DNA of 40,301 bases, taken from assembly GCA_944388705.1 (NCBI GenBank), contig CALXJU010000012.1:1-40301 (forward strand), written 5' to 3'. This document shows, piece after piece, positions 1 to 34,037 of this stretch (positions are counted from its first letter, which is position 1; each line of letters begins with the position of its first letter). The notes beneath the pieces were generated by a model. That model had not been told where the DNA came from. It was given only the letters and a program-made list of their open reading frames with translations, and made no database searches. A program made the position numbers and the translations under genes. Source of the DNA: an uncultured Clostridia bacterium (GTDB lineage Bacteria; Bacillota; Clostridia; TANB77; CAG-508).

Positions 1-51
1 TCAATGCAATTGTAAATATGTTACGACAAATATTATATACTATCACAAATA

Positions 52-618
52 TTATGTCAAGTTTTTGTCGTTGTTTTTTGGATATCTAATAGCTTGTATA
101 CCAAAATCATCTTTTAAATGATTTAATAAATCCATTAAATTTTTAACTTCTGAAACCCTAACATTTCCAGGATTTATTCTTTCTGCCATTAATATAGGAT
201 ACCATTGATTTGTAGCATATACTTCTGATTCAGTTGGTGATGGAATATAATATATATACATTAATTTTTTATTCATGGCTGCATACATAATTTCACCGAT
301 TGTACCTGCAGTAATTTTTTCTTGTAAAAATGCTACTAAAATATCGATTTCTGGAATTATTTTGAATTCCATATCAGCAATTAACTTAGATGATAAGGAA
401 GGTTTTCCATGTTCATCTGCATAATAAAATGATGGCCATCCGTAAGAATATTTATTATTCAATTTGATAGGATCAAATGGCATTAATATTTTTTTACTAT
501 CTACTAGAAATGTACGGTAATCCTTTTCTAAATCTAATTCTTGCGTTTTTGGATCTATTATCATACTACCTGCAAAATATATTTTTTTATTGCAATCTTT
601 TTCATTATTTGTTTTCAA
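52..618 (-). CDS. Nucleoside 2-deoxyribosyltransferase-like protein, TTG start
   Basis: Probably a member of the nucleoside 2-deoxyribosyltransferase fold family, whose enzymes cleave or exchange the N-glycosidic bond of deoxynucleosides or deoxynucleotides. The start KKIYFAGSMI (residues 11-20) fits the first strand of that fold. TAGTIGEIMYAA (103-114) fits the GTxxE segment, in which Glu109 would be the nucleophile. The start is decided by the sequence: GAGGAGA lies just upstream of a TTG whose first base is at 618, two bases beyond the stop of the preceding gene. A longer reading from an ATG at 669 would overlap that gene by 50 bases and has no such site. Last gene of the four-gene operon. 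The family assignment rests on motif and length (188 aa); substrate unknown. Confidence 0.62.
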   Translation of the reverse strand: MKTNNEKDCNKKIYFAGSMIIDPKTQELDLEKDYRTFLVDSKKILMPFDPIKLNNKYSYGWPSFYYADEHGKPSLSSKLIADMEFKIIPEIDILVAFLQEKITAGTIGEIMYAAMNKKLMYIYYIPSPTESEVYATNQWYPILMAERINPGNVRVSEVKNLMDLLNHLKDDFGIQAIRYPKNNDKNLT

Positions 619-619
619 T

Positions 620-2134
620 TTATTTCTCCTCAATTCCCTGAAAATATTTTTTATTTTTCCACGCTTCATCTATTAAATATAGTTTTCCTTTTTCATCTGT
701 TTCAAACATTTTCATTTTTTTCATCATATTTTTTATTTCTATTATGTTTTGTTTATTTTCTTCCAAGATTTGATGTTTTAATTTTTCCGTTTCTTTTCTT
801 GTTCTTATACGTTGTTTAGTAAAAAAAGAATTTTTATCAAATTTTTCGAATATATCCAATGTATCAAAGGTATTTTCGTAATAAACTACTGAATTTGATG
901 TATTTGTCCTTAAATATTTCAAACCTGTTTCTTCACCAATAAGTAAACGTACATATGGTGGTTTTCCTGTATATTTGTTATTCAAATAGAAATTTTTATT
1001 ATTGTCAATAAAATAATCAAATCTTCCTTTTTTCTTTTGTTTGAAGAATTCATCATACCCTGAAATCTTTTCAGCTTCCATTAATTCAACACAATTTTTT
1101 GTATTTTCTTCTGACAATTTATGTGGTATTACATGAATATGAGCATGCATTGCAGAATTTTTTTCTAACAATGAATTCCACTCAGTAGAAATCCTTTCTA
1201 ACTCTTTTTCTTGTTCAGAATAAGGAAGCGAATCTATATATTTTAATCTATCTGACCTAAATTCTTCATATTGCTGTGCTCCATGTTCTGTAACAATTGG
1301 GAAAAAACCATTTCTTTCCTTTAAAAATTGTGTTACTTTTTTAAGAATACTAATAAAATCTTTACGTTCTTTAGCATTAAATTGTAATGATGATACAAGA
1401 AACCTCTTAGGACAGATGTTTACATGTCCTGGTACTATTGTTTTATCATTGGCCATAACAACCATAGTATCATTTTCAGCAATAATGTTTTCATAGAATG
1501 GGTTTGTTTGAAATTCTCTATTAGCTAAATAGTTATTTATTGCTTTCAAGCACCAATGATTTGTATGCGAATAATCTAATCTATCATCACCAAATTTTTG
1601 TATTGACATTCGATTTTTAATATTTTTTTCTAATCCAAAATATTTCATTGCATATTTAACTGATTCTTCTAATGAACCACTAGTAGATGTATTTACTATT
1701 GGCACATGGAATTTTTGAGCAATTTTTATATTGATATTTATCCAATATTCGTTATCATACCAAGTAGATTCATCTTCATGTCTTGCTTTTAATCTTGAGA
1801 TAGTATCTTCTAAATTGGCATAGCACATAACTAAAGGTATTTGTTCAAAATATTTTTTAAACTCATCCCATCTTTTTTCTGGTAAAGCACTAATTGGTGT
1901 TATTAGTCCTCTATCAAAAATTGTATCTTCTTTACACTCAAGTGCTTTATCAAGTGCTTTTTTTGTCATATTTATAAGTTCATCTTCTTTAACAGATAAA
2001 GGTTCTATATCATATTGAATACCATATTCACTAAAAAAATGACAATATCTTATTCCCAATCTTTTAGCAATCTCCTTTGCTACTGATGTTTTTCCAGATC
2101 CATCATAACCTTCTAACATAAAAATTTTTGCCAT
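620..2134 (-). CDS. P-loop nucleotide kinase fused to a HIT-type hydrolase domain
   Basis: A 504-aa two-domain protein. Residues 1-170 look like a thymidylate-kinase-type P-loop enzyme: Walker A GYDGSGKTS at 9-17, and FDRG at 73-76 where this family carries its DR motif. Residues about 205-345 look like a HIT domain: VVMANDKTIVPGHVNICPKR (225-244) is the usual N-terminal strand-turn with PGH, and HAHIHVIPH (330-338) is the histidine triad His330, His332 and His334. A region rich in charged residues follows (about 345-504), with no recognised motif. Known families: dNMP kinases phosphorylate nucleoside monophosphates, and HIT enzymes hydrolyse or transfer nucleotidyl groups. The combination suggests activation and trimming of one nucleotide, which is inference. 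The gene stops two bases before the start of the deoxyribosyltransferase-like gene, so the two are probably translationally coupled. Confidence 0.75.
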   Translation of the reverse strand: MAKIFMLEGYDGSGKTSVAKEIAKRLGIRYCHFFSEYGIQYDIEPLSVKEDELINMTKKALDKALECKEDTIFDRGLITPISALPEKRWDEFKKYFEQIPLVMCYANLEDTISRLKARHEDESTWYDNEYWININIKIAQKFHVPIVNTSTSGSLEESVKYAMKYFGLEKNIKNRMSIQKFGDDRLDYSHTNHWCLKAINNYLANREFQTNPFYENIIAENDTMVVMANDKTIVPGHVNICPKRFLVSSLQFNAKERKDFISILKKVTQFLKERNGFFPIVTEHGAQQYEEFRSDRLKYIDSLPYSEQEKELERISTEWNSLLEKNSAMHAHIHVIPHKLSEENTKNCVELMEAEKISGYDEFFKQKKKGRFDYFIDNNKNFYLNNKYTGKPPYVRLLIGEETGLKYLRTNTSNSVVYYENTFDTLDIFEKFDKNSFFTKQRIRTRKETEKLKHQILEENKQNIIEIKNMMKKMKMFETDEKGKLYLIDEAWKNKKYFQGIEEK

Positions 2135-2178
2135 AATATATTTTTCTCTCCTAAATTATTTTTTATTTTGATATTTTT

Positions 2179-2904
2179 TCAATTCTTTATATTTTCTTCG
2201 CTAGTTGTTCGTGTCCAAACATTAGTTATTTCACCATCGGGAAACATTTTCCAGGCTTTAACATTATTTTTTATAGCAGGTCTATCACAACGTAGGATAA
2301 CATGTCCTCTATATATTTGTGCTGCATGAAATTCGAAAGCCCTTACAAATTTTGAATTTGGTAAGTCATCTAAATAGTCAACATTTTTTCTTTGAACACA
2401 CCAGTCATTTGCGAAATTTAAAGTGGAAAATTTAAGATAATATCTTTTTTCATATTTATCAATAAACTTGTCTAAATCTGACATGGTTGGAAATCTTTCT
2501 TGCCATATTATTGTACTTAATGTTATATCAGATTTATAATCTAATTGATTAGGAAGTTCAGTCTGACCATAGTATGAAACATTAAAACTATCTACTATTT
2601 CGTCTAACTCTTTCATGACTGATGGATTATCATAATTCGTTGTCAAAATCAAATTAAATCCATATTCTTTTATTTTTTTTGCAATTTTTACAACATTTGG
2701 ATGTTCTGTTGGCTCTCCTCCTGTTAAAATAATATCTTTAAATCTATTTTCAATAGCAAAATTCAAAGCCTTCTCCACATTTTGTATCGTTATATACTCT
2801 TCTCTACCACGATATTTGTCTGTACAAAATGGACATGCTCTTCTACATTTATGGGTTAATACAATTGTCATATAGTCGGTATCCTTAGTTTCAAGTTTAT
2901 ACAC
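2179..2904 (-). CDS. Radical SAM protein
   Basis: A short (241 aa) radical SAM enzyme. The cluster motif is HKCRRACPFC at 19-28, with Cys20, Cys24 and Cys27 in the CX3CX2C pattern that holds the [4Fe-4S] cluster and SAM. TGGEPTEHP (61-69) is the GGEP SAM-binding segment. Two isolated later cysteines (NDWC, LRCD) do not make a clear SPASM cluster. The preferred start is the GTG at 2904, eight bases after AAGGAG at 2913-2918; the GTG at 2913 overlaps that site and is too close. It lies between the unknown 273-aa gene and the kinase-HIT gene in one operon, so a nucleotide or nucleoside substrate is plausible but unproven. It lacks the N-terminal pattern I associate with viperin. Confidence 0.85.
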   Translation of the reverse strand: MYKLETKDTDYMTIVLTHKCRRACPFCTDKYRGREEYITIQNVEKALNFAIENRFKDIILTGGEPTEHPNVVKIAKKIKEYGFNLILTTNYDNPSVMKELDEIVDSFNVSYYGQTELPNQLDYKSDITLSTIIWQERFPTMSDLDKFIDKYEKRYYLKFSTLNFANDWCVQRKNVDYLDDLPNSKFVRAFEFHAAQIYRGHVILRCDRPAIKNNVKAWKMFPDGEITNVWTRTTSEENIKN

Positions 2905-2953
2905 TTCTTTCACTCCTTCATTTTTCTAATCTATGATGTTTATAGTACATATA

Positions 2954-3775
2954 TTAATCATCTAAGTTTTGAAGAATCATTGGTTCAAAAATATCATCTA
3001 AAAAGCGTTGTTGCAAAGTATCTGACATATTTCCAGTATAATATCCTCCACCATCTAACATTTGTATTCCAGAATATATTCCATCAACAAATAGGATGTC
3101 ACCATTTTGTTCGTCTAATGCCATTTTTACTGGCTTTTCTTCAACCCAAACTACATCTCCGTTTTTATGTATTTTTCCGTCTTTTAATTCAAAACTATCT
3201 TCTACAAAAGCATACAATTTAATTCTAATTCCAACTTGACCTGTTTCTTTATCTCTATATCTTGGATACTCAGTCCATTTAGGTGTATTACTAAAGTCAT
3301 TCCACTTTTTAGTATCAAATATATAGTTTAATCCATCTAATTTTTCTAAATTATGATTTTGAAAATTCTCTTCAAACCTTTTCGCATCACTTTCACAAAA
3401 TGCATCTTGAGCATATGAGCTACATTCTATTTGAATCCAATTTTCTCCTCTATCAGTAATATTAGGAGATTTTATAATTTTAGCAAATGAACTAGAATAT
3501 GGCCTCACTATACAACTTCGATGTTTTGGTTCGTGAGCACCTCTTTGTGCAGTTTTACGTGATACTTCAACAGCATGTCCTAATCCATCTGCTGAAGACG
3601 TTTGATACCACCATGACTTTCTATCTAATGTTTTGAATATATCTTCACTAGCTATTCCTCCTAATATCTGTGCTAAAAATGTAGGATGACATAGTTTTCC
3701 TTTTTCTTTAATATATGCATGTAACTTATTTTCTATAAAAAATTTATCTTCTGTGGCTAAAGTAAAATATCCCAT
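2954..3775 (-). CDS. Uncharacterised protein, first gene of the radical SAM/kinase-HIT operon
   Basis: A 273-aa soluble-looking protein with no signal peptide or membrane segment. I do not recognise the family. It is rich in aromatic and charged residues. A central stretch holds RSCIVRPYSSSFAKI near residues 87-101 and a small group of cysteines (IECSSYAQDAFCES). The C-terminal part (about 205-273) reads like a compact beta-rich domain: GDVVWVEEKPVKMALDE, then YSGIQML and YTGNMSDTLQQRFL. The ATG at 3775 follows AAAGGTAG and a near-consensus promoter. Being first in the operon, it may be the substrate-recognition or scaffold partner of the enzymes that follow; this is inference from position only. 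Confidence 0.6.
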   Translation of the reverse strand: MGYFTLATEDKFFIENKLHAYIKEKGKLCHPTFLAQILGGIASEDIFKTLDRKSWWYQTSSADGLGHAVEVSRKTAQRGAHEPKHRSCIVRPYSSSFAKIIKSPNITDRGENWIQIECSSYAQDAFCESDAKRFEENFQNHNLEKLDGLNYIFDTKKWNDFSNTPKWTEYPRYRDKETGQVGIRIKLYAFVEDSFELKDGKIHKNGDVVWVEEKPVKMALDEQNGDILFVDGIYSGIQMLDGGGYYTGNMSDTLQQRFLDDIFEPMILQNLDD

Positions 3776-3807
3776 TTTTTTCTACCTTTCTTTTAAATTA
3801 TGTATTT

Positions 3808-3836
3808 ATATTACTATAATCTAATAGTTTTGTCAA
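3808..3836 (-). promoter_or_regulatory. Sigma-A-type promoter for the radical SAM/kinase-HIT operon
   Basis: On the minus strand TTGACA (3831-3836) is followed by a 17-base spacer and TAATAT (3808-3813). This is a full-consensus -35 with a one-mismatch -10 at ideal spacing, 33 bases from the ATG at 3775. It marks the four genes down to 52 as one transcription unit. Confidence 0.8.
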
Positions 3837-3870
3837 ACCAAAAATTAGGCACTGGACAAAGTTTATATAT

Positions 3871-3923
3871 AAAAAAATTTCTTATTCAATTGAAACAATA
3901 AAAGTCAAATTGAATAAGAAATT
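3871..3923 (-). terminator. Intrinsic terminator after endonuclease V
   Basis: A 16-bp perfect stem, AATTTCTTATTCAATT at 3876-3891 paired with 3908-3923, with a 16-base loop. On the minus strand it is followed by a run of T (3871-3877). It lies just after the stop of the endonuclease V gene and separates that unit from the operon promoter at 3808-3836. Confidence 0.85.
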
Positions 3924-3940
3924 ATTTTAATGGAAAATTT

Positions 3941-4645
3941 CTATCTTGTATCTAAAAATTTCTTCCTAAGTTTATGGGTTTCAATATCCGCAAAACGAGT
4001 AGGAATAGGTATCCTACTTTCCTTATTAACGCAATGCATAATTATTGTTTTTGCATTTTCTAAGGACATATAGTTTCCAACTGAAACAAATATAGGTTTA
4101 CAGTTTTGTCTAGTTCTTAAAGCAATTCCCAGTATTTCATTGTTTTTGCTAACTATGTTAGTACTTGCTCCAATGTAATTGTCAGGCATATCAAAACTCA
4201 AATTCTCTTCTACACGAAAAAAAGTTTTAGCTACACCAATACACGGCTTATTTAAATAAAATGAAGCATGTGTGGCAATCCCTATTCTTTTAGGATGTAA
4301 TATGCCATTACCGTCAAAAATGAAAATATCAGGCGTAGCTTCTATTTGTTTAGTAGCTTCTAATACCAAAGGGAGCTCACGAAAAGATAAAAAACCTGGG
4401 TGATACTCAACATCTACTTCCCCAATATATCCAATTTCTTGAATAATGTTTAAAGTATTATAATCCATTATAATTATACTACAACAACCATATTCTTGTA
4501 TTCCTATTTTGGTATATGCTACATCAACTCCTGCAACGTACCGTATCTTTGAGCAATCCAGTGGTTCTTGACAAAGCCGATCCTGAAAATATTTTTGTTT
4601 TTGTAACCATTTTAACTTAATCTCGGTTTGTTTTTCATTTTCCAT
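3941..4645 (-). CDS. nfi: Endonuclease V (deoxyinosine 3' endonuclease)
   Basis: Cuts DNA (and, in some members, RNA) one base 3' of deoxyinosine and so starts repair of deaminated adenine. The 234-aa length is normal. The family motifs are present: RYVAGVDVAY (35-44) with Asp41, YHPGFLSFRE (81-90) with Glu90, and FDGNGILHPKRIGIATH (110-126) with Asp111, the three metal-binding acids expected in the family. CIGVAKT follows. The ATG has a GAGGTGAT ribosome site. It starts 35 bases downstream of the NrnA-like gene, so the two probably share a transcript, with a strong hairpin terminator afterwards. Confidence 0.95.
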   Translation of the reverse strand: MENEKQTEIKLKWLQKQKYFQDRLCQEPLDCSKIRYVAGVDVAYTKIGIQEYGCCSIIIMDYNTLNIIQEIGYIGEVDVEYHPGFLSFRELPLVLEATKQIEATPDIFIFDGNGILHPKRIGIATHASFYLNKPCIGVAKTFFRVEENLSFDMPDNYIGASTNIVSKNNEILGIALRTRQNCKPIFVSVGNYMSLENAKTIIMHCVNKESRIPIPTRFADIETHKLRKKFLDTR

Positions 4646-4679
4646 TATATCACCTCATCTTAATATCAACAATACATAT

Positions 4680-5687
4680 TTAGTTACCTAAGATAGCTGT
4701 AACCAAAAGTTTAAATATATGATTTAAAGTTGTCTCAGTAGTGTCAGAAATAGTCATTTTAAATCCAGCAGAATTTGAATGACCGCCCCCTTGCAAAAAG
4801 ATCTTTCGCTCTACCATTAAAGCACAAATATAATTCAAGTCAACATTTGATAAAGTAGTTCTCATAGAACCTTTAATTTCATGATTTTCATTTTCAATCA
4901 ATAAAACTAAAGTGTTACAAGGAACCATATCTAATATTTGCTGAATAATTGCTTTATGGTTAACTGTTTTTAAATTGTACTCTTCTGGGTTTAAATCTGA
5001 TTGAAGAATATAAGTACATCCAATCCCTTGGTTAATAATCAATCTTTTAATAGTTAAACTTGCTAAAATTTGGGTTCTAACATCTACATTTCTCAATTGT
5101 TCTTTGATATTTTGAATATCAACACCTACTTTTTTGCAATAGCTTAAAATGTCTCTACATTCATCAGTAACATTTAATGTCAAACCAATAGTATCAGACA
5201 TAATACCAATAGCGACACATCTGAGAAAAGAATTACTATTTTGCTCGCACATATACATATGAAATTCTCTATATATAATGCAAGTACATGATGTAGCAGA
5301 TGTGTCGATTATATAGTTCTCAGTTCCCATTAAATTTCCAGAAACTTCATGGTGATCAATGATAATACACTGTTGAGATGAAAATTCTCTCAATAAGTTA
5401 CTTCCTTCCACCCTTGAATAATCAGAACAATCTACAATTATGACTAAATCATGATTGTTCATCGTACAATTCTTTGTCAGAATGTTATGCTTGTCAATAA
5501 AAGACAAATCTTTACTTATATAAGGTATAAATACCTCAATATTTTTAGGATCTTTTCCTAAACTAACAAGCAAATAATACATAGCAATTGAACTAGAAAT
5601 TGCATCACCATCTGGTCTAACATGTGTAAGAATTAAAAATGTTTTGGCCTGACAAACATTATCCATAATTTTTTTCCGTACATCCAT
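4680..5687 (-). CDS. nrnA: DHH/DHHA1 phosphoesterase, NrnA-like (nanoRNase / pAp phosphatase)
   Basis: A 335-aa DHH-family enzyme. Known members degrade 2-5 nt RNA and dephosphorylate pAp or cyclic-dinucleotide products such as pApA. Motifs in order: LTHVRPDGDAIS (20-31) with Asp26 and Asp28, VDCSD (85-89), IDHHE (110-114), and the DHHA1 substrate motif GGGHSNSAGF (300-309). All expected metal and substrate residues are visible, so it should be active. The start follows AAGGAGG. The NrnA call against a c-di-NMP-specific GdpP-like role rests on the absence of membrane, PAS or GGDEF domains. The gene sits upstream of endonuclease V on one likely transcript. Confidence 0.88.
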   Translation of the reverse strand: MDVRKKIMDNVCQAKTFLILTHVRPDGDAISSSIAMYYLLVSLGKDPKNIEVFIPYISKDLSFIDKHNILTKNCTMNNHDLVIIVDCSDYSRVEGSNLLREFSSQQCIIIDHHEVSGNLMGTENYIIDTSATSCTCIIYREFHMYMCEQNSNSFLRCVAIGIMSDTIGLTLNVTDECRDILSYCKKVGVDIQNIKEQLRNVDVRTQILASLTIKRLIINQGIGCTYILQSDLNPEEYNLKTVNHKAIIQQILDMVPCNTLVLLIENENHEIKGSMRTTLSNVDLNYICALMVERKIFLQGGGHSNSAGFKMTISDTTETTLNHIFKLLVTAILGN

Positions 5688-5944
5688 TTAGTAGTATCCT
5701 CCTTCTTTGATTACATAGTTATTTTACACCTAAAATATGTACTTTGTATAAAATATCTTCCCTCCTTTGTAATTTTATATTTTCTTATGTGAGTCAATTT
5801 CTTTCGTATAAAATGGCAGATAATATCTATTCCATTAATATAAGAATTAAAATTAATTAATTCTTGTATCGTATTTTTAAATTTAGTTAATTTTACTATT
5901 TTTTTTAATTTCTGTCAATTAGTAATAAGTTCTATATCCTTTTT
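5688..5944. other. AT-rich intergenic region upstream of the NrnA-like gene
   Basis: About 250 bases of very AT-rich DNA between the start of the NrnA-like gene and the GC-rich structured element. I see no convincing reading frame. A minor AT hairpin (AAGAATTAA at 5842-5850 with TTAATTCTT at 5857-5865) is present. No promoter with both good boxes at 16-18 base spacing was found, although the NrnA promoter must lie here. Confidence 0.4.
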
Positions 5945-6056
5945 TGCAGGATCAGGGAGACGTCTCGTATCCCGATAACTACCTAAAAGCGTGGCTTTTA
6001 GCAGGGTGCTCTTTAAAAATGGAGTCGACTTTTGTACGTCTCCACTTTTAAGCAAA
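5945..6056. ncRNA. GC-rich structured element, candidate non-coding RNA (strand unresolved)
   Basis: An island far richer in G and C than the flanking DNA, with no open frame. On the plus strand it folds as three consecutive hairpins: GGGAGACG/CGTATCCC with a TCT loop (5955-5973, one mismatch), CTAAAAGC/GCTTTTAG with a GTG loop (5983-6001, perfect 8 bp), and a long stem CTTTAAAAATGGAG (6011-6024) with CTCCACTTTTAAG (6040-6052). GGAGACGT (5956-5963) is also exactly complementary to ACGTCTCC (6036-6043), which would make a competing fold or pseudoknot. A hairpin with T-rich flanks on both sides follows at 6061-6086. I cannot assign a family. It could be a plus-strand RNA ending in that hairpin, or a leader of the NrnA-like gene on the minus strand. 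Confidence 0.5.
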
Positions 6057-6060
6057 AAAC

Positions 6061-6086
6061 AAGCATAAGCCTTTCAATTTATGCTT
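6061..6086. terminator. Hairpin terminator between the structured element and the HTH gene
   Basis: AAGCATAA (6061-6068) pairs with TTATGCTT (6079-6086). On the minus strand the stem is followed by GTTTTTTG, a good U-run for ending transcripts that come from the HTH gene. On the plus strand it is followed by a looser T-rich tract (ATTTCATCTTTTTATTT), so it may also end a plus-strand RNA from the structured element. Confidence 0.6.
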
Positions 6087-6238
6087 ATTTCATCTTTTTA
6101 TTTAACTTCTTCTTTTAACTTAATGCCATTCTTTAATCCTGCCAGATTATATTTTTTATGAAAGTAATAACTCTCATACATGCTTATCCTAACATCACCT
6201 CTATTTGTTTGTGATATTAACTTTGTTAAAATTATTAT

Positions 6239-6691
6239 TCAAGTCTTTTCTAAAAATAAATTATTTGCATATAAACTATTCCAATCAAAGTCACTATAAT
6301 CTCTATTAGATTTATGTTTTGACTTATTATAATATATTTTATTATTATTTATTATATCTTTAACATCTCTGTTAACAGAATTCTTATTAATTTGTTTATA
6401 GGTATTTACATATCTATTAGTAGGTGTAATTTTTCTAAAAGCTATTTCTTTTGAATTCTCCTTACAAATTATTTGTACATTTATATATCCTTTTTTCTTT
6501 AATGAATTAATAATTCTTGATGCTTGTACATTACAGATATTCAATAACTTGCTTATATATGAATTAGACATTATACAATCGTTTTCTTTACTTAAAGATA
6601 AAATCATTGAAAAGATTGTTTTTTCTTTATCATTTAAATTCTTATCTACTAACACTTCATATGGTATCCATATCCCTTTAAATTCTTTCAA
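6239..6691 (-). CDS. Helix-turn-helix protein of the plasmid/phage replication-initiator type
   Basis: A 150-aa protein. Residues 1-75 match the HTH module common at the N-terminus of plasmid, phage and ICE replication proteins: FKGIWIPYEVL, then NDKEKTIFSMILSLS, then a winged helix with NSYISKLLNICNVQASRIIN and KKKGYINV. The rest is polar and asparagine/lysine rich, ending in SDFDWNSLYANN, a tail I associate with such proteins. The only available start is a TTG at 6691, two or three bases after AAGGAG, which is unusually close, and an in-frame stop lies just upstream; translation may be weak. No integrase, relaxase or other replication gene is near, so it is either a lone regulator or a remnant of an element. 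Confidence 0.55.
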   Translation of the reverse strand: MKEFKGIWIPYEVLVDKNLNDKEKTIFSMILSLSKENDCIMSNSYISKLLNICNVQASRIINSLKKKGYINVQIICKENSKEIAFRKITPTNRYVNTYKQINKNSVNRDVKDIINNNKIYYNKSKHKSNRDYSDFDWNSLYANNLFLEKT

Positions 6692-6722
6692 TACTCCTTT
6701 TTCTTTCTAACCAATTGCTCCA

Positions 6723-6738
6723 CACAATCGATTCTGTG
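6723..6738. promoter_or_regulatory. Near-palindrome upstream of the HTH gene, possible operator
   Basis: CACAATCGATTCTGTG reads almost the same on both strands around AATCGATT, with one extra base on one side. It lies 32-47 bases upstream of the HTH start, where an autoregulatory operator could sit. Binding is inference. Confidence 0.3.
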
Positions 6739-6924
6739 CCATTTAAATATAAAATTAGATTAACTTATCGATACTAAAAAATTTAAGCAATATCAGACTT
6801 TTTATTTATTCATCCAAAGATGATGACTTTACGGGGGTCTTTGCCTTATTCCATAGTAATATATAAACTTTTTGTTATATCTATAAATAAAGAATGCACC
6901 AAACAGGACCGTCCCCTTTTGAAA
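6739..6924. other. Non-coding spacer between the HTH gene and the 6S RNA, with a REP-like fragment
   Basis: No supported gene. It holds a short G-rich patch (ACGGGGGTC at 6831-6839) and, at about 6895-6920, sequence whose minus strand reads GGGGACGGTCCTGTTTGGTG. That resembles the GGGGACGGTTCT-type dispersed repeats I recall around RAYT/IS200-like transposases in Firmicutes. Only one copy is present here and no transposase is near. Confidence 0.3.
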
Positions 6925-7146
6925 CAAAAAAAGAAAAGTCCCCGCCTTAGCCGTAAGTTGATTGAATTTTTAAGGACCTGCCCTCGACAGGTGGGTTCCG
7001 TCTTAAGTACTCCTGGGCTTCTTACTACTCGAAAGTGTAAGCTTGCACGCCATACCTAAAGATTATGGTCCCTCTTTTAAACTTGTAGGTTCTAAAAATT
7101 CTGTGCTACACGCACTATGCAGGGCTTTTCTTTTTTCTTTATTGTT
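6925..7146 (-). ncRNA. ssrS: 6S RNA
   Basis: 6S RNA binds the housekeeping RNA polymerase holoenzyme by mimicking an open promoter and damps transcription in stationary phase. Seen on the minus strand: closing strand AAAAGCCCTGC (7119-7129) pairing with GCGGGGACTTTT (6934-6945), about 195 nt in between, a central region with TAGAACCTACAAG, a GC-containing terminal hairpin with a TTCG loop near 7017-7042, and a 3' central hairpin ACCTG/CAGGT within GGAACCCACC...GGTCCTTAAAA. This order matches Firmicutes 6S RNA as I know it. A T-run after the closing stem (6925-6933) ends the RNA, and a good promoter precedes it. It is separate from YqeY, which lies upstream on the same strand. Confidence 0.82.
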
Positions 7147-7152
7147 ATACTT

Positions 7153-7181
7153 ATTTTAGCATATAAAATAATAAATTGCAA
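7153..7181 (-). promoter_or_regulatory. Promoter of the 6S RNA gene
   Basis: Minus strand TTGCAA (7176-7181), 17-base spacer, TAAAAT (7153-7158). The start point should be near 7146, about 17 bases before the closing stem of the RNA. Confidence 0.6.
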
Positions 7182-7298
7182 CTATATTATAGTTTAAATC
7201 TTCGATATTTTATATACTATATTTATTATTTCTTTAATTTATTTGTTTATTCTCTCTCTTTTAAATTTTTTCAAATATCATATTTTTCCAATTTTATT
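7182..7298. other. AT-rich gap between the 6S promoter and YqeY
   Basis: Just over 100 bases of AT-rich DNA downstream of YqeY. I see no gene and no clear terminator hairpin. Confidence 0.4.
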
Positions 7299-7742
7299 TT
7301 ATAATCCCATTATTTCTTTTGCTACTTCATTTATAGTTTTTCCATCTGCTGCAGCTCCCATTTTAGCTTTTGCTTCTTTCATTATAGCTCCCATATCTTT
7401 CATTGTTGTAGCACCGATTTTTGAAATTATTTGTTCTAATTCTGTTTTTATTTCTTCTCTACTTAATTGTTTTGGTAAATATTTTTGTAATACTTCTATT
7501 TCTTCATTTGTTTGGTCTATTAAATCCTGTCTATTAGCTTTTTCAAAATCTTTTAATGCATCTTTTTTTGTTTTTACTTCTTTTGCTATTATTTCTAATA
7601 TTTTATCATCTTCTACTTGAATTCCTTTATCTTTTTCTATTTGTAATATTCCCGCTCTTACCATTTGAATTGTATTTTTTCTTACTTCTTCTTTATTTTT
7701 CATTGCAGATTTTAAGTCTTCCATTAATTTTTCTTTTAACAT
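7299..7742 (-). CDS. yqeY: GatB/YqeY domain protein
   Basis: A 147-aa protein with the whole-length YqeY family pattern: MLKEKLMEDLKSAMKNKEEV at the start, TIQMVRAGILQIEKDKG (24-40), LQKYLPKQLSREEI (84-97), and MKDMGAIMKEAKAKMGAAADG towards the end. The family shares the C-terminal tRNA-binding fold of GatB and is thought to act in tRNA-dependent amidation or tRNA binding; the biochemical role remains uncertain. The ATG is preceded by AAGGAGGAG. It stands alone, downstream of the Rsm22-like gene. Confidence 0.92.
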   Translation of the reverse strand: MLKEKLMEDLKSAMKNKEEVRKNTIQMVRAGILQIEKDKGIQVEDDKILEIIAKEVKTKKDALKDFEKANRQDLIDQTNEEIEVLQKYLPKQLSREEIKTELEQIISKIGATTMKDMGAIMKEAKAKMGAAADGKTINEVAKEIMGL

Positions 7743-7859
7743 TTTATCTCCTCCTTAAATGAAAATCTCTTTTTATTTTCATATTTCAAACTTTCATTAC
7801 GAATTTTTTCCATTTACGGAACTTTTTCATAATAATCATATCAATTTTTATCAATTTAG

Positions 7860-10279: not shown

Positions 10280-11839
10280 TTATTTTCCTTCTAAAATTTT
10301 TATTGCACATTTTATTCCATCTATTGCTGCTGTCATTATTCCTCCTGCATACCCAGCACCTTCACCACAAGGGTAAAGTCCCTGTACATTTATAGAATTT
10401 AATGTTTCTTTATCTCTTGTTATTTGAACTGGTGATGAGCTTCTCGTTTCTACACCTGTTAATAATGCATCATTTTCTCCAAATCCTTTTAACTTTTTGT
10501 CCAATTCTGGTATTGCTTCTTTTAATGTTTCTGATACAAATTCAGGTAATATTTCATTTAAGTTTGACATTGTTACACCAGGTCTATATGTTGGTTTGAC
10601 TTTTCCTATATTTGTTGTTTTTATATTCTTGATAAAATCTCCAACCTTTTGAATTGGTGCATTATAATTTCTTCCGCCTAATTCAAATGCTTTTTTCTCT
10701 AATTCTTCTTGAAAGTACATTCCATCTAGTGGTGAATTTTTATAAAAATCTTCTACCACTACATTTACTAATAATGCACTATTTGCATTTTCTCCATCAC
10801 GTGCAAAATTACTCATTCCATTTGTTACTATTGAATTTTCTTCTGAATTTGAAGCCATTACTTGTCCTCCTGGACACATACAAAATGTATAACATGTTCT
10901 TCCGTTTTGTGCGTGATATACTAATTTATAATCTGCTGAAGGTAATTGTAGTTTTGTGATTTCTCCATATTGTGCTATATTTATATCTTTTTGCAAATGC
11001 TCTATTCTTACTCCTACCGCAAAATTCTTTGGTGCAACTTCAACTCCTTTTTCATATAGTTTTTTGAATGTATCTCTTGCACTATGTCCAATTGCCAGTA
11101 TTACTGCATCTGTTTCTATTTTTTTAGAACATTTTACTGATTTTATCTTATTGTTTTCAATTTCAAAATCTGTTACTTGCTCATTGAATAGTACTTGTCC
11201 TCCATTTGCTATTATATATTCTCTTATGTTTTTTACTATTTTTACTAAATTATCTGTTCCTATATGTGGTTTAGCTGTATATAATATTTCTTCTGGTGCT
11301 CCAAACCTTACGAATTCTTCTAATACTTTTCTTGAATATATACTTGAATTTCCTGTATTTAATTTTCCATCTGAAAATGTTCCTGCTCCACCTTCTCCAA
11401 ATTGTATATTTGAATTTGGTTTAAATTTTCTATTTATAGTAAATTCTTCTACATCTTTTATTCTTTCTTCTACACATTTTCCTTTTTCTAGTATTATAGG
11501 TTTTATTCCATTTTCTATTAATATTAGTCCTGCAAATAATCCTGCTGGACCTGCTCCAACTATTACAGGCTTTATTTTATTTGCTCTTTTAACTTGTATT
11601 TCTGGAAATTTATATTTTTCTACTTTTTCAAATTTGTTCTCTTTTTTACTGTCTTTTAGTTCTATGTCAATTGCATAATTATAGTGTACATTTTCTTTTT
11701 TCCTAGCATCTATTGATTTTCTATATATGTACCAATTTTTTACTTCTTCTGGCTTTATTTTATTTTTTGATATAGCTTTTAAAAATACTTGTTCATCTGA
11801 TAAGTTTTCTTTTATTTTAATATCTTTTATTCTTATCAT
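10280..11839 (-). CDS. FAD-dependent dehydrogenase (uncharacterised NAD(P)/FAD oxidoreductase, COG2509 type)
   Basis: A 519-aa flavoprotein. It has an N-terminal extension of about 85 residues typical of this family (LSDEQVFLKAISKNKI, then YIYRKSIDARKK). The Rossmann FAD motif is VIVGAGPAGLFAGLIL (93-108), and the characteristic GEGGAGTFSDGKLNTG lies near 148-163. The C-terminal part carries GLYPCGEGAGYAGGI, the second FAD-binding segment. The reaction is unknown for this family; it is common in Firmicutes and usually housekeeping. The start is preceded by AAGGAGAAATTAA. It heads a run of three closely spaced genes down to 8824. Confidence 0.88.
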   Translation of the reverse strand: MIRIKDIKIKENLSDEQVFLKAISKNKIKPEEVKNWYIYRKSIDARKKENVHYNYAIDIELKDSKKENKFEKVEKYKFPEIQVKRANKIKPVIVGAGPAGLFAGLILIENGIKPIILEKGKCVEERIKDVEEFTINRKFKPNSNIQFGEGGAGTFSDGKLNTGNSSIYSRKVLEEFVRFGAPEEILYTAKPHIGTDNLVKIVKNIREYIIANGGQVLFNEQVTDFEIENNKIKSVKCSKKIETDAVILAIGHSARDTFKKLYEKGVEVAPKNFAVGVRIEHLQKDINIAQYGEITKLQLPSADYKLVYHAQNGRTCYTFCMCPGGQVMASNSEENSIVTNGMSNFARDGENANSALLVNVVVEDFYKNSPLDGMYFQEELEKKAFELGGRNYNAPIQKVGDFIKNIKTTNIGKVKPTYRPGVTMSNLNEILPEFVSETLKEAIPELDKKLKGFGENDALLTGVETRSSSPVQITRDKETLNSINVQGLYPCGEGAGYAGGIMTAAIDGIKCAIKILEGK

Positions 11840-27473: not shown

Positions 27474-28757
27474 TCATTTTAAAAACGTCTCAGGATTATT
27501 CTTTAATAATGCAATTTCTTCTCTAAATTCTATTAATTCCTCTTTAGTAAAATATTTAAAGAAATATTCTAAATCTTTTTCAACTAAGTATTCTTTAATA
27601 TAAATATAACATTCTCTCAAAAGATTTAAGTAAAAGTTTTTGTTTTTTAATTCATCAATATTTTCAATTTCTAGAAATCTTTTAAATCTATCTTGATAAA
27701 TTGAAGTAATTGTTTTTATAGAATTATAATTGTGAAAATATCCCACTTCTATCCAAAGTTTCATAATCCCTAACATCTTATCAACAATTTCTGATATATA
27801 TCCTTCAGCACCATGTTTATATTCAGAAATTATATTATAAAGATTTTTTCCAATTTTTCCTTCTAGTTCTTTTTCATCATTTTCTTCAATTTCAGCAAAC
27901 ATTTTCTTTGTTACATCATTATAATTCTTAATTTGACTTACTATTTCAGTTCCTTTAAATTCTCCAAAATCATGAAACAATGATTTAACTATAATTCTAT
28001 AAATATCTATATTTTCTTTTAATTCTTTATTACAATATTCTGCAAATAATAAACTTATTATGGTTACTGAATATTGATGAAATAATACATTTTCTGGAAC
28101 TAGTGTTACAAATATTGAATATCTATATACATCTTTTAAATTTAGAACAACATTCATCAGATTTCCATATTGACTTTCATTAAACTTATTATCAATTATT
28201 AAATCTATTATCTCTTTCTTTTCTTTATAAAAATGAGAGTCTTCATTCATATTGTTTAGTTCACTAATAATTTTATTTTTAATATCATCAAAAAGTGAGA
28301 CAATCTCTTGGTTTCCTCTTAAAAACATTTTTCCAAATATTGCATAGTCAGCAACATTTTCCAAAAACATTAAAAGTTCACTATATTTGTTCAATTTAAT
28401 AGTTTTATAATTATATTTTAATTTTTGCATAATTCTATTTTTATATTCGAATTTGTCTATTATTAATTTATCAAGTATTTCATGATAAAGTTGGATTTTA
28501 GATTTATCAGATATTTCAAATGCTAAATTTCCAGTTTCTCCATATATAATTTGTTTTAATAAATAATTACACAAAACGTCTGTAACTTCTTGTCCTTTTT
28601 CATTTCTATCTTCAATTATTTTTATAAATAAATATATTGTAATCATAGATTTATCTATAATTGTATATTTATCATTATAAGTTTGATAAATTTTAGAATT
28701 ATAACTGTCTATACTAGATAAATATATTTTGAATAAATCTTCTATTATATCATTCAT
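27474..28757 (-). CDS. HD-domain phosphohydrolase, YfbR-like
   Basis: A 427-aa, mostly helical protein. An HD domain lies in the middle (about 223-340): FHQYSVTIISLLFAEYC, then KSLFHDFGEFKGTEI carrying the His-Asp pair, and ISEYKHGAEGY. This arrangement resembles the YfbR/HD_3 5'-nucleotidases. The long N-terminal region (1-220) is not recognised. Chosen start is the ATG at 28757, after GAGGAAGTG; a GTG at 28766 is two bases from that site. Last gene of the nine-gene cluster, followed by a strong terminator. A nucleotide substrate is inferred from family and neighbours. Confidence 0.72.
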   Translation of the reverse strand: MNDIIEDLFKIYLSSIDSYNSKIYQTYNDKYTIIDKSMITIYLFIKIIEDRNEKGQEVTDVLCNYLLKQIIYGETGNLAFEISDKSKIQLYHEILDKLIIDKFEYKNRIMQKLKYNYKTIKLNKYSELLMFLENVADYAIFGKMFLRGNQEIVSLFDDIKNKIISELNNMNEDSHFYKEKKEIIDLIIDNKFNESQYGNLMNVVLNLKDVYRYSIFVTLVPENVLFHQYSVTIISLLFAEYCNKELKENIDIYRIIVKSLFHDFGEFKGTEIVSQIKNYNDVTKKMFAEIEENDEKELEGKIGKNLYNIISEYKHGAEGYISEIVDKMLGIMKLWIEVGYFHNYNSIKTITSIYQDRFKRFLEIENIDELKNKNFYLNLLRECYIYIKEYLVEKDLEYFFKYFTKEELIEFREEIALLKNNPETFLK

Positions 28758-28775
28758 TATATTCACTTCCTCATA

Positions 28776-29897
28776 TTAATTTACATTATTTTCATCATTT
28801 AATAGTCCATAAACCATAGCTATATCTGTTGGTACAATATATTTTGCCTCTATTGCTTCTGCTACTACTAATACAAATGCACACATTGCTCTTGTAGCAT
28901 ACCACCAATCTGGGTCATTCACTCTATTTCTTATTTCATCTAATGATATTGCTTTAAAATATCTTTCAGTCTCACTTTTTCTTGTTTCAATATCCATCAT
29001 AATTGGTGATGCATCATCTTTATACAAAGTGTTTTCTTCATATTTTATTCCAGAATTTCTTGCAAATTTTTCATGTCCTCCACCAGCTAATATTAATATA
29101 TCTGCTCTTTCTTTAGGTAAGTTCAATTTTTCTTTTATAAATTGTTTTACTTCTTCAATATCAGTTGTGGCATAGTCTTCTGCTAAATCAGGAAATTCTT
29201 GCATTACATCTATTACTCCGATTTTTGTATTAACACTTTCTTTTATTCCTTTATCATATATTGCAATTTCAGTAGAACCTCCTCCACCAATGAAAACACA
29301 TACTTTATCTTTTACAAATCTTGTAGTTCCGAAAACTGTTAATTCATTTTCTTTTTCTTGAGAAATAATATTAAAATCATATCCAGTTTCATTTTTAAAT
29401 CTATTTAAGAAACTATTTTTTTCATCTTCATTTAAGTTTCTAAAAATGCTTGTACCACATACATATATATTTTTAGAAATAGATTTTGCATCTTTTATAA
29501 TTTTTATTAATTCTACAATATCACTTTCTCTTAATTTTTTATTTTCATTATAATGTTTTTTAAAAAATATTGTTTTTTCCTCTATTCTTTCAATATTTTT
29601 TCCATCAAATTTATCTATTTTTGTACATGTTGAACCAACTTCTACTATTATTTTTTCTATAATTTTTTTAGTATAAGAACAATCAGCTATAACTGCTTTA
29701 TTATATTTTTTAGCATTTTCGATAACGTTTTCTACTAAGTTCCTTGCAATCCCTTGTCCTTGATATGAATCATTAACTTCTGTATGTATTATGTTCCAAT
29801 ATTCTTCTTTTTCTATAAAATCACATTCTCCTATTTGAATATTATCATCATATGCAATTGCTCTGTTTTCGTTTTTATCAAATATTATTTCAACCAT
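28776..29897 (-). CDS. GNAT acetyltransferase fused to a Ppx/GppA-like domain
   Basis: A 373-aa fusion. Residues 1-82 match a small GNAT acetyltransferase: IIHTEVNDSYQGQGIARNLV (36-55) with the QxxGxA acetyl-CoA loop and VIADCSYTKKII. Residues 83-373 match the Ppx/GppA sugar-kinase-fold phosphatases: IIVEVGSTCTKID (83-95) as the first phosphate loop, NIYVCGTSIFRN, ISQEKENEL where the catalytic Glu is usual, and FIGGGGSTEI (202-211) as the second phosphate loop. Family members hydrolyse polyphosphate or pppGpp. I do not know this fusion as a standard architecture. Start at the ATG 29897, after AAGGAGG. In the same cluster as the HD, RdgB-like and Nudix genes. Confidence 0.75.
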   Translation of the reverse strand: MVEIIFDKNENRAIAYDDNIQIGECDFIEKEEYWNIIHTEVNDSYQGQGIARNLVENVIENAKKYNKAVIADCSYTKKIIEKIIVEVGSTCTKIDKFDGKNIERIEEKTIFFKKHYNENKKLRESDIVELIKIIKDAKSISKNIYVCGTSIFRNLNEDEKNSFLNRFKNETGYDFNIISQEKENELTVFGTTRFVKDKVCVFIGGGGSTEIAIYDKGIKESVNTKIGVIDVMQEFPDLAEDYATTDIEEVKQFIKEKLNLPKERADILILAGGGHEKFARNSGIKYEENTLYKDDASPIMMDIETRKSETERYFKAISLDEIRNRVNDPDWWYATRAMCAFVLVVAEAIEAKYIVPTDIAMVYGLLNDENNVN

Positions 29898-29938
29898 AAT
29901 TTCCTCCTTACTTTGCAAATAAACTTTTTTATTTTAAT

Positions 29939-30535
29939 TTATATGTTATTGGTTATAAATTCAACTACATCATTTATATTGTCTTTCTTTTTATATGTTT
30001 TTTTATCTTCATCGGTTAGCTCTACTAAATACTTGTTATATTCTGGAACAATTGTAATAGAGTCTAATGGATATCCTGGATTTCTTTTTTGACATGGTTT
30101 ATCTACAAAATAGAAATGGTCTTTACTCCATGAATATTCTTTTATTCCTTTATCACTACAAATTACCATTCCATAAACCCATTTTGCTGTTAATTTTGTT
30201 CCATATTCTTTTACTAAATTAGTATAATATTCTATCATTTCTTCATCATTTAATTCTTTACCATTTATTCTTCTTACATGTGTTCCTGGTTGTTTGTCTG
30301 ATGGCAATTCTTCTATAAATAAGTTATTATCCATTCCAATTGTTGGCATTTTGGTTTTATCAAAATATGCTTTTGCCTTGATATATGCGTTTTCAATTGC
30401 ATTTTTTCCACTTTCTTCTATATCTAATTTGAAATCCAAATCTTTTATTGTAATTAATTCTATTCCTTTTGTTTTTAATATTTCTTTATATTTTCCAACT
30501 TTTGCTGGGTTTGTTGTTGCAAATAATACTTTCAT
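29939..30535 (-). CDS. RdgB/HAM1-like non-canonical purine NTP pyrophosphatase
   Basis: A 198-aa member of the Ham1/RdgB family, which hydrolyses ITP, dITP and XTP to the monophosphates and keeps deaminated purines out of nucleic acids. FATTNPAKVGKYKEIL (5-20) is the N-terminal T/SxNxxK motif, ESGKNAIENAYIKAKAY (41-57) the second, and TIGMDNNLFIEELPSDKQPGTHVRR (70-94) the third, slightly divergent (IGMDN in place of the usual ADDSG). HFYFVDKPCQKRNPGYPLDSI near the end fits the base-recognition segment. Since the core differs from canonical RdgB, substrate range may too. RBS TAGGAGA. It lies 9 bases downstream of the Nudix gene. Confidence 0.82.
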   Translation of the reverse strand: MKVLFATTNPAKVGKYKEILKTKGIELITIKDLDFKLDIEESGKNAIENAYIKAKAYFDKTKMPTIGMDNNLFIEELPSDKQPGTHVRRINGKELNDEEMIEYYTNLVKEYGTKLTAKWVYGMVICSDKGIKEYSWSKDHFYFVDKPCQKRNPGYPLDSITIVPEYNKYLVELTDEDKKTYKKKDNINDVVEFITNNI

Positions 30536-30544
30536 TTTTATCTC

Positions 30545-30964
30545 CTAACTATTATTAAATAATTGTTTTTTGTGAATTTCTGCTTGTTGTAACATATGTC
30601 CTATATTACCTTCTCCTGCAAATTTATTTATATCAAAAAAGTTTTCATTTTTGTCGAGCCAAAAAAGTTTGTTTACTTCTTCTATTAATTTTACATCTTT
30701 GTTCAATTTTCCTGTATATACTTCTAATTCCATATCTGACATTTCGTATTGAAAGTTCATAATATGAGTTAATTTGATATCTTTATTAGTTATTCCTGTT
30801 TCTTCTTGTAATTCTCTATATGCTGCATGTAATTCGTCTTCATCTTTTTCTACTTTTCCACCAACTAAATTGAATTTTCCTTTATATGGTTCTTTTTCTC
30901 TTTTACACATTAGTATTTTATTTTCATCTTTATCAAAAACTAATATTACATTTAATTTTTTCAT
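30545..30964 (-). CDS. Nudix hydrolase (MutT-like)
   Basis: A 139-aa Nudix enzyme. The Nudix box is complete: GGKVEKDEDELHAAYRELQ EETGI spans residues 35-58, with Gly36, Glu42, Arg50-Glu51, Glu54-Glu55 and Gly57 in the canonical places. Members cleave nucleoside diphosphate derivatives, often oxidised (d)NTPs. The start is the ATG at 30964, seven bases after AAGGAG; an ATG further up at 30991 overlaps the kinase gene and has no site. In the nucleotide-handling cluster. Confidence 0.9.
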   Translation of the reverse strand: MKKLNVILVFDKDENKILMCKREKEPYKGKFNLVGGKVEKDEDELHAAYRELQEETGITNKDIKLTHIMNFQYEMSDMELEVYTGKLNKDVKLIEEVNKLFWLDKNENFFDINKFAGEGNIGHMLQQAEIHKKQLFNNS

Positions 30965-30980
30965 AATTTTCTCCTTTATT

Positions 30981-31544
30981 TTATAAGTCAAACTTTTCTT
31001 TTATTATTTTTGCCACTTCTTCAGGTGATAATTTCTCATTATTTATTTTTATATAGTTCTTGAATATTTTTTCTCCTTCTCCTTGTTCAGAGTTAAGTTT
31101 ATGCTTTGTCATGGATTTAATCAAATCATTTTCACTCCATTCCAAATCTCTTTTAGAAGCTTTATTTGCTAATCTATTTTCTGTTTTATTTCTTTTTAAT
31201 CTTTCTTCTAGTGATGCTTCTAATTCCACTACATATGATTCTTCAAAAAGTTCCATAAATCTATTTGCTTGCTCTATTTCTATTTGAAAGTCTTTTCCAA
31301 AATCAAAACATGCTGTAAATATAATTCCTTTTTCTTTACTTTTAGCAAATTCTTTAAATATTTCATATCTAATAACACTATTCATTTTTAAAAAAGTTTC
31401 TTTATCATAGTCAAATATTAATCTAACCATTTCTATTGTCATGTGATTATGTAATAATTTATATCCTGTAATTTTTGATAATTGTTGTCCAACTGTCATT
31501 TTTCCTACTGCTTGCGGTCCTATTATTAATACAAATTTCGGCAT
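30981..31544 (-). CDS. P-loop kinase-like protein (AAA_33 type)
   Basis: A 187-aa small kinase. LIIGPQAVGKMTVGQQLSKITG (6-27) is the P-loop; the GKM in place of GKS/T is common in this family (GPxAVGKMTVG). HNHMTIEMVRLIF (32-44) and FTACFDFGKDFQIEIEQANRF follow, then LEASLEERLKRNKTENRLANK, a lid-like arginine-rich region. Related to shikimate/AMP-type small-molecule kinases; substrate unknown. Ribosome site AAAGGGGGAA. It lies 16 bases upstream of the Nudix gene. Confidence 0.8.
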   Translation of the reverse strand: MPKFVLIIGPQAVGKMTVGQQLSKITGYKLLHNHMTIEMVRLIFDYDKETFLKMNSVIRYEIFKEFAKSKEKGIIFTACFDFGKDFQIEIEQANRFMELFEESYVVELEASLEERLKRNKTENRLANKASKRDLEWSENDLIKSMTKHKLNSEQGEGEKIFKNYIKINNEKLSPEEVAKIIKEKFDL

Positions 31545-31578
31545 TTTACATTCCCCCTTTAGTAATTTTGTATTGATT

Positions 31579-32115
31579 TTATTTTAACCTTTCATAATAC
31601 TTTTTCAAAAAATTCCAAGGTCCAGTTTTGTCTGTAATACCCTCGAAATTGTTATTAATTCTATCTAATATTTCTTGTTTACTGAACCATTTTATTTCTG
31701 ATACTTCATCTTCTTGTAATTTTATATTTGAAATATCTATCTCTTTTGCAATTATATAACATTCATTATAATGATTATTTATTATATTGTCTTTAATATT
31801 AATAGATGTTGAACCTACTAAATATTTCACTTCGTTTTCTGCAACTTCAATACCTAATTCTTCTTTGATTTCTCTTATTAACGCTTGACTTCCAAATTCT
31901 CCTGCTAAAACATGACCACCTGCTGTAATATCCCATAAATCTGGCCATAACTTCTTATTTTTACTTCTTTTTTGCAATAAAACATCTCCATTTTTGTTAA
32001 ATATAAATCCATATATTGCTCTATGCCATAAACCTTTTTCATGACATTCTTCTCTTGTAGCTATTTCTCCAGTAAATTCACCATATTTATTTAATACATC
32101 AAAATATTCTTTCAT
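31579..32115 (-). CDS. Nudix hydrolase, IPP-isomerase-like subgroup
   Basis: A 178-aa Nudix protein. Residues 1-40 (YFDVLNKYGEFTGEIATREECHEKGLWHRAIYGFI) show the N-terminal pattern shared with isopentenyl-diphosphate isomerase-like Nudix proteins. The Nudix box runs from 67 to 89: Gly67, Glu73, Arg81-Glu82, Glu85-Glu86, Gly88. Members act on NDP-sugars, cap-like or coenzyme pyrophosphates; the isomerase subgroup requires extra residues not evident here. RBS AAGGAGA. Second Nudix gene of the cluster. Confidence 0.88.
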   Translation of the reverse strand: MKEYFDVLNKYGEFTGEIATREECHEKGLWHRAIYGFIFNKNGDVLLQKRSKNKKLWPDLWDITAGGHVLAGEFGSQALIREIKEELGIEVAENEVKYLVGSTSINIKDNIINNHYNECYIIAKEIDISNIKLQEDEVSEIKWFSKQEILDRINNNFEGITDKTGPWNFLKKYYERLK

Positions 32116-32160
32116 ATTCGTTTTCTCCTTTTTCTTATCAAATATTTTTTTGATTTTTTA

Positions 32161-33228: not shown

Positions 33229-33264
33229 AATTCTCTCTTTCCTATTTTAATACCTGTAAAAAGG

Positions 33265-33933: not shown

Positions 33934-34011
33934 AATATTTTTTTCCTTTCTTATTTTGCTACATTCTATCATAGAAAATATAAAAAAGAAAGGCTTTTTA
34001 TAATAATAAAT

Positions 34012-34037
34012 ATGGAGATTAGAACACTAATCTCCAT
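34012..34037 (-). terminator. Hairpin at the end of the GNAT gene
   Basis: ATGGAGATTAG (34012-34022), loop AACA, CTAATCTCCAT (34027-34037), 11 bp perfect, touching the stop codon of the GNAT gene (34038). Minus strand continues ATTTATTATTAT, a weak tail, so some read-through into the cluster is possible. Confidence 0.65.

Follow-up and report, generated by a model that had tools for sequence, protein, structure and literature searches.

To our knowledge, modified free nucleotides arise by few natural routes, and the ones described so far have yielded nucleoside antibiotics and antiviral nucleotides. The blasticidin pathway uses the radical S-adenosylmethionine (SAM) protein BlsE, and a nucleotide kinase gene neighbours the radical SAM gene in part of the prokaryotic viperin (pVip) loci, PADLOC having a model for such kinase-associated viperins. 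On the degradative side, DNPH1 acts as an N-glycosidase on hydroxymethyl-dUMP. OxsB, an enzyme of oxetanocin A synthesis, is described in the available part of PMC7074753 as working on dAMP, dADP or dATP. The present analysis concerns a four-gene operon at the end of a 40,301-nucleotide stretch of DNA from an uncultured Clostridia bacterium (GenBank assembly GCA_944388705.1, contig CALXJU010000012.1), referred to as the window. The operon encodes a 273-aa protein, here called u1, a radical SAM protein, a fusion of a kinase with a HIT domain, and a predicted nucleoside 5'-monophosphate N-glycosidase. It is a real, conserved nucleotide-pathway operon, and the longer operon to which it likely belongs may make a chemically modified nucleotide and carry its own predicted clearing enzymes.

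With the mildiomycin (MilB), bacimethrin (BcmB) and blasticidin (BlsM) pathways, the operon shares the modelled fold of its fourth protein, as well as the catalytic and phosphate-binding positions, and BlsE is among the weak matches of the window radical SAM protein. It differs from these pathways in that no thymidylate-synthase-like or peptide-adding gene was noticed in it, and in the 16-18% identity of its fourth protein to MilB and BcmB; we know of no kinase-HIT fusion, HAM1-family pyrophosphatase or FAD oxidoreductase in the mildiomycin, bacimethrin or blasticidin clusters. The likeness to oxetanocin A and albucidin synthesis (OxsB, AlbB) lies in sister clusters from Bacilli, all four of which include a B12-binding radical SAM protein whose nearest solved structure is OxsB; there, however, it forms a fusion with a kinase, the analysis identified no OxsA-type HD phosphohydrolase, and the window operon and its counterpart in a congener, as read, lack the B12-binding protein. 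Prokaryotic viperin (SAND) loci also place a radical SAM gene beside a nucleotide-type kinase, but the window operon misses the viperin family cut-off, has other partners, and shows no defence setting among the neighbours scanned.

The window is one whole contig, and the operon, which lies on the minus strand, is cut off at the contig end at base 1. Reading along that strand, the genes are u1 (2954-3775), the radical SAM gene (2179..2904 from a GTG start, within an open reading frame that extends to 2913), the kinase-HIT gene (620-2134) and the glycosidase-like gene (52..618), with spacings of 49, 44 and 1 bases; the genes, their order and their spacing agree with a preliminary description of this DNA, which had noted four tightly spaced genes. 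The same four genes, divided over two contig ends, are found in G030, a genome of the same genus as that of the window (G000). They are under purifying selection between the two, dN/dS being 0.08 to 0.15 for the five segments compared. Downstream of the four genes, G030 continues with an FAD oxidoreductase, a HAM1-family NTP pyrophosphatase and a 245-aa protein. The window contig ends 51 bases past the fourth gene (1..51, minus strand), and these last bases, which have no visible match to G030, do not resemble the beginning of the FAD oxidoreductase gene found downstream there. The window genes are likely the front part of a longer operon of the kind seen in the congener.

With a 714-aa relative as the query, a scan of named genomes yielded four sister assemblies from uncultured Bacilli, Tenericutes or Bacillales (loci L014-L017), and in each of the four, orthologues of the window radical SAM, kinase, HIT and glycosidase-like parts are clustered together. 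All of these clusters comprise a radical SAM-HIT fusion, a second radical SAM protein, a glycosidase-like protein, a kinase-B12 radical SAM fusion, a window-type radical SAM protein and an FAD oxidoreductase, followed by HAM1 and methyltransferase genes in the three whose contig extends that far; the radical SAM and FAD oxidoreductase genes of L015 also read as one frame, and in both L014 and L015 a 237-aa gene encodes an NrtR-like regulator. The sister glycosidase-like proteins are 66-69% identical to that of the window, and the window-type radical SAM proteins 66-70%. In an all-against-all comparison, the window kinase matched the N-terminal domain of the B12 radical SAM fusion (E 5e-81 to 1e-87) and the window HIT half matched the C-terminal domain of the radical SAM-HIT fusion (E 6e-52 to 2e-61); the three small radical SAM domains proved to be mutual paralogues, and u1 was found in none of the four clusters. 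Since this comparison matches its domains to the sister fusions, the window operon is, by its sequence, a condensed form of the sister cluster in which kinase and HIT are directly fused. The preliminary description had suggested that the four genes could act as a set on a modified nucleoside or nucleotide, and had proposed looking for them together in other genomes; the co-occurrence of the four parts in the sister clusters and the domain fusions support a conserved functional set aimed at nucleotides, and a run of unrelated housekeeping genes is rejected on the same evidence.

The fourth gene had been labelled deoxyribosyltransferase-like, a name that does not hold; the protein scores 15.8 bits against the nucleoside 2-deoxyribosyltransferase family PF05014, below the gathering score of 28.8, although a relative in locus L034 reaches 33.3 bits. 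Its start is probably the TTG at 616-618, which follows GAGGAG and gives a protein of 188 aa, and not the ATG at 669 within the kinase gene. The structural model (pLDDT 86.7) shares the fold of MilB, BcmB and DNPH1, which are its closest PDB entries; de novo TIM-barrel designs took the top ranks in a profile search but were disregarded, the matches being repeated weak stretches. An alignment (A9) of the window protein with 69 of 120 listed relatives, from 571 proteins reported in the database, keeps the predicted catalytic Glu109 in 70 of 70 proteins, and Ser/Thr103 and Gly105 in 69 of 70 each. These residues were equated by spacing to Glu103, Ser97 and Gly99 of MilB, and an alignment with BcmB sets the same S-x-G-T-x-x-E stretch in register with the window protein. 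Because MilB, DNPH1 and BcmB are the nearest structures to the model and the alignment keeps the catalytic glutamate throughout, the protein is better read as a putative nucleoside 5'-monophosphate N-glycosidase than as a deoxyribosyltransferase.

The kinase-HIT protein (504 aa) begins with a domain of the P-loop nucleoside/nucleotide kinase type (residues 1-173, 1616..2134, minus strand), which scores 32.6 bits for AAA_18 against a cut-off of 29.4 and carries the P-loop GYDGSGKT. Its HIT domain (residues 184-436, 827..1585, minus strand) scores 24.3 bits for PF01230 against a cut-off of 21.5, and contains the HxHxH signature within the motif HAHIHVIPH (1121-1147, minus strand); the corresponding sister protein of L014 carries HSHTLIIPH instead and is not matched by the Pfam HIT model. 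An AlphaFold model of the fusion, with a mean pLDDT of 49.8, was too poor to use. The radical SAM protein belongs to the superfamily by its PF04055 score (49.9 bits, cut-off 29.5) and by the CX3CX2C motif CRRACPFC at residue 20, and also carries GGEP.

A pathway can be proposed from these parts, the roles of the enzymes being inferred from their protein families. The radical SAM protein, aided by the FAD oxidoreductase where present, would modify a nucleotide at its sugar or base, the kinase domain would raise the phosphorylation state of the substrate or product, and the HIT domain would transfer or remove a nucleotidyl group. The fourth protein would cleave the N-glycosidic bond of a 5'-monophosphate and release the base, as MilB and BcmB do; HAM1 would hydrolyse unwanted triphosphate to monophosphate, and HAM1 and the N-glycosidase could together clear both forms. 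The order of steps is likewise conjectural, and the product is a candidate antimetabolite, cofactor or signal. What is directly observed beneath this scheme is the gene set, its longer form in the congener, the sister clusters, the fusions, the intact motifs and the purifying selection. Seven kinds of fusion occur, of which kinase-HIT, kinase-B12 radical SAM and radical SAM-HIT come from loci of the window or sister type, and glycosidase-kinase, kinase-NrtR, radical SAM-glycosidase and PnuC-glycosidase from more distant cousins; they link this set with its PnuC-importer cousins and suggest that the partner proteins act together. A radical SAM pathway to a modified nucleotide is the most economical reading because the named partners come from families with nucleotide substrates or with radical or redox chemistry, and because of the fusions. 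We give an even chance to the longer operon making such a nucleotide and carrying its own predicted clearing enzymes. The preliminary description had suggested that the locus could make, activate and recycle a modified nucleoside or nucleotide; this general idea stands with the conserved nucleotide-directed set, while the antiviral form that it gave as one example is unsupported.

Several observations weigh against a biosynthetic pathway. The FAD oxidoreductase and HAM1 genes are absent from the window contig as parts of the operon, and their relatives elsewhere in G000 are weak, at 26% identity (window gene 10280-11839) and 33% identity, respectively. Compared with the sisters, the window operon lacks the methyltransferase, the B12 radical SAM protein and two further small radical SAM domains, and the product and chemistry may therefore differ. 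The resemblance of the sister B12 protein to OxsB is to a large superfamily, and its best NCBIfam model, BchE, scores 151 bits against a cut-off of 481. The sequence matches of the window radical SAM protein point to the generic core only (MoaA, NrdG2, PqqE). Foldseek gives its glycosidase matches moderate TM-scores (0.45-0.56, normalised by query length, with an rmsd >5), and many close relatives of the glycosidase in the protein database come without a readable neighbourhood. Finally, a PnuC-type importer lies beside related glycosidase genes in nine of the 16 loci read, which favours uptake and salvage over synthesis.

Such salvage is the main rival, because PnuC cousins exist, and is regarded as unlikely but as the alternative that survives best. 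An unusual nucleoside or nucleotide-like vitamin would be taken up or recycled to a usable base or cofactor, the radical SAM protein stripping a decoration from it. The distant glycosidase relatives in L034, L035, L038, L054-L056 and L082-L084 stand behind a PnuC-type importer or are fused to it; according to the available part of PMC7749635, the cargo of PnuC relatives is nicotinamide riboside, thiamin, riboflavin or, by prediction, deoxynucleosides. In addition, NrtR-like genes are present in seven of the 16 loci read, and L056 encodes a CoaD-like nucleotidylyltransferase and a CoaE-like kinase. The window and PnuC types have the glycosidase family in common, and in part also HAM1, NrtR-like regulators and proteins weakly related to the 245-aa one, but the PnuC operons have an importer in place of HIT and the B12 radical SAM protein, and their small kinases form a second family with no link to the window kinase at E 1e-3. 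Their company varies, and the radical SAM protein found in L034, L035, L082 and L083 is a different one. Over the 16 loci, a P-loop kinase occurs in 12, a radical SAM protein in 10 and HAM1 in nine, at least three contigs ending too early to tell; PnuC and HIT were found together in none of them. Against salvage, no PnuC relative was found in those stretches of the six window-type loci that were compared, and the sister clusters have up to four radical SAM domains and an FAD oxidoreductase, with a methyltransferase in three, which suits synthesis better. Nor did any riboswitch next to the operons reach its gathering score; L016 has a T-box leader, but outside the cluster. A tenth cousin, L057, has a kinase and purine-synthesis-like genes instead of PnuC: its run at 2132-7800 includes adenylosuccinate-synthetase-like, short-chain dehydrogenase (SDR), formamidase-like, HisG-thymidylate-kinase fusion and PurC-like genes (some named by eye), and is possibly a separate purine-analogue cluster.

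That a single operon encodes both HAM1 and a DNPH1-like glycosidase, and that HIT enzymes can act as nucleotide hydrolases, would also fit a purely sanitary role, in which damaged or foreign nucleotides are destroyed by HAM1 and then by the N-glycosidase while the radical SAM protein repairs or degrades the base. A dedicated kinase, an FAD oxidoreductase and several radical SAM proteins would be superfluous to that role, which we hold to be improbable.

More doubtful still is an antiviral locus resembling those of prokaryotic viperins, in which the radical SAM protein would make, and the kinase activate, a chain-terminating nucleotide. The radical SAM gene does adjoin a nucleotide-type kinase, the distribution is patchy (the full kinase-HIT protein occurs in two of 146 genomes of the genus), and PADLOC gave weak matches, local ones of 40.1 and 30.8 bits between its pVip models and the window radical SAM protein and one of 20.1 bits between VakA and residues 1-31 of the kinase, that is, the P-loop. 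The viperin model NF038283, whose cut-off is 180 bits, lies outside the best 25 of 43 NCBIfam families for the window radical SAM protein, the 25th having an E of 0.0022; the small radical SAM proteins of L014 score 29.3, 34.7 and 39.3 bits, viperin being the best NCBIfam model for the latter two at about a fifth of the cut-off. Membership of the viperin/SAND family was rejected on this cut-off; the preliminary description had called the radical SAM protein not viperin-like. A profile search of the PDB lists PqqE, BlsE and MoaA and no viperin, an absence that excludes nothing. Among 10 proteins compared with PADLOC (eight neighbours, on the visible side of the contig only, and two operon members), no convincing match was found, the single one for a neighbour being of 31 bits to mad2. 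The glycosidase and HAM1 partners would, moreover, be expected to destroy a chain terminator. The viperin-type logic of the preliminary description is unsupported, with the family cut-off missed, different partners and no convincing defence match among the neighbours scanned. The maturation of ribosomally synthesised and post-translationally modified peptides (RiPPs) was weakly rejected, no precursor-like gene having been noticed, with small open reading frames not searched systematically; the genes speak neither for nor against DNA hypermodification, and no DNA-acting partner was noticed apart from an upstream endonuclease V gene.

The gene set is rare and scattered. The two genomes of the genus with the full kinase-HIT protein are those of the window and G030, three further matches being weak; the same two carry u1 at an identity of at least 91% (two of 94) and the close radical SAM protein (two of 146), with distant relatives of each in eight more. 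Among 391 genomes sampled from the class, one has the window-type glycosidase and two distant relatives were found besides; among 395 from the class of a Bacilli genome bearing the larger cluster, one has it, with one distant relative. A further search matched 15 of 336 genomes, of which the neighbourhoods of the strong matches (the window, G068, G1103, G090, G1132 and G1016) were read and nine, at E 3.8e-5 to 7.6e-4, were left out. No relatives of the kinase-HIT, glycosidase or radical SAM proteins were found in viral contigs or phages (the phage searches including one with the L014 radical SAM protein) and none of the kinase-HIT protein, the sole query there, in plasmids; no description of this gene set was found among the open-licence PMC papers listed. 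Of the eight distant radical SAM relatives in the genus, seven (L075-L081, but not L074) adjoin a DUF402 gene above its Pfam cut-off, which in two loci is fused to a GNAT acetyltransferase domain. This company says more about the radical SAM protein than its sequence matches do. By their sequences, these pairs look like another small radical SAM nucleotide system; the available part of PMC11602121, on a ribonuclease with a DUF402 domain, includes nucleoside di- and triphosphatases and FomD among DUF402 proteins.

The u1 protein has no Pfam, NCBIfam, PADLOC or PHROG family match, and sequence searches of the PDB gave nothing credible. Its relatives in the genus, at 23-28% identity, are the N-terminal parts of proteins of 640-740 aa in which a Walker motif was seen by eye. 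Two near-identical 738-aa proteins of this kind (L028:3383-9536 and L006), also with a Walker motif by eye, lie near a 243-aa reverse-transcriptase-like frame, and the u1-like domain of the relatives varies mostly in one stretch, a pattern that, by eye, resembles diversity-generating retroelements. The larger proteins recall, by analogy, the variable proteins of such elements. As full-length close copies of u1 are 84-91% conserved with no hot spot visible by eye, u1 itself does not look diversified. It may play an accessory part, in ligand binding or regulation. At L084:3998-6580, a PnuC-glycosidase fusion gene has an opposite-strand neighbour that encodes a u1-like protein of 502 aa.

Regarding transcription, the preliminary description had placed a terminator upstream of the operon and a TTGACA-17-TAATAT promoter before it. 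The former corresponds to a terminator-like hairpin with an A+T-rich stem and T run (3870..3929, minus strand; fold of -19.3 kcal/mol, z -5.0), whose stability was matched by none of 200 shuffles, although a simple terminator scan did not list it. The promoter is present at 3808..3836 on the minus strand (read 3836 to 3808) and agrees with 10 of 12 consensus positions; 34 promoter-type matches were found against 31.9 expected in shuffled sequence, so that the consensus alone is at chance level. It is made more credible by G030, which has TTGACA-17-TATTAT ahead of its u1 gene, within surroundings that have otherwise diverged, and thus keeps the -35 element, the 17-base spacer and a similar -10 element. 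A perfect TTGACA-17-TATAAT at window positions 32-60, partly within 1..51, lies where the fourth gene ends and points out of the contig; it sits in a CGACAAA...TTTGTCG palindrome; another unit may start there. The endonuclease V gene that adjoins the operon upstream (3941-4645) was excluded from it because it is absent from the G030 stretch; a second such gene, by sequence, is found near a cousin operon (L056:2682-3425). Elsewhere in the window lie a 6S RNA (6935-7128, minus strand, 82.2 bits) and, at 27474-34604 on the minus strand, a second run of nucleotide-type genes, named by eye as HD-like, HAM1-like, two NUDIX, kinase-like and methyltransferase, which also holds a radical SAM gene (32161-33228) weakly related to that of the operon.

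In these little-studied bacteria, the operon and its relatives form a small, conserved set of genes that lends itself to testing and has a sister form dependent on B12; simple assays of two of its enzymes, the glycosidase and HAM1, could name the substrate. Somewhat short of an even chance is accorded to the broader proposal that these loci represent a new family of radical SAM nucleotide pathways in uncultured Bacilli and distant relatives, distinguished by kinase, HIT and radical SAM fusions, in which HAM1 and the N-glycosidase would form a safety valve that keeps the product, be it an antimetabolite, a signal or a cofactor, from nucleic acids.

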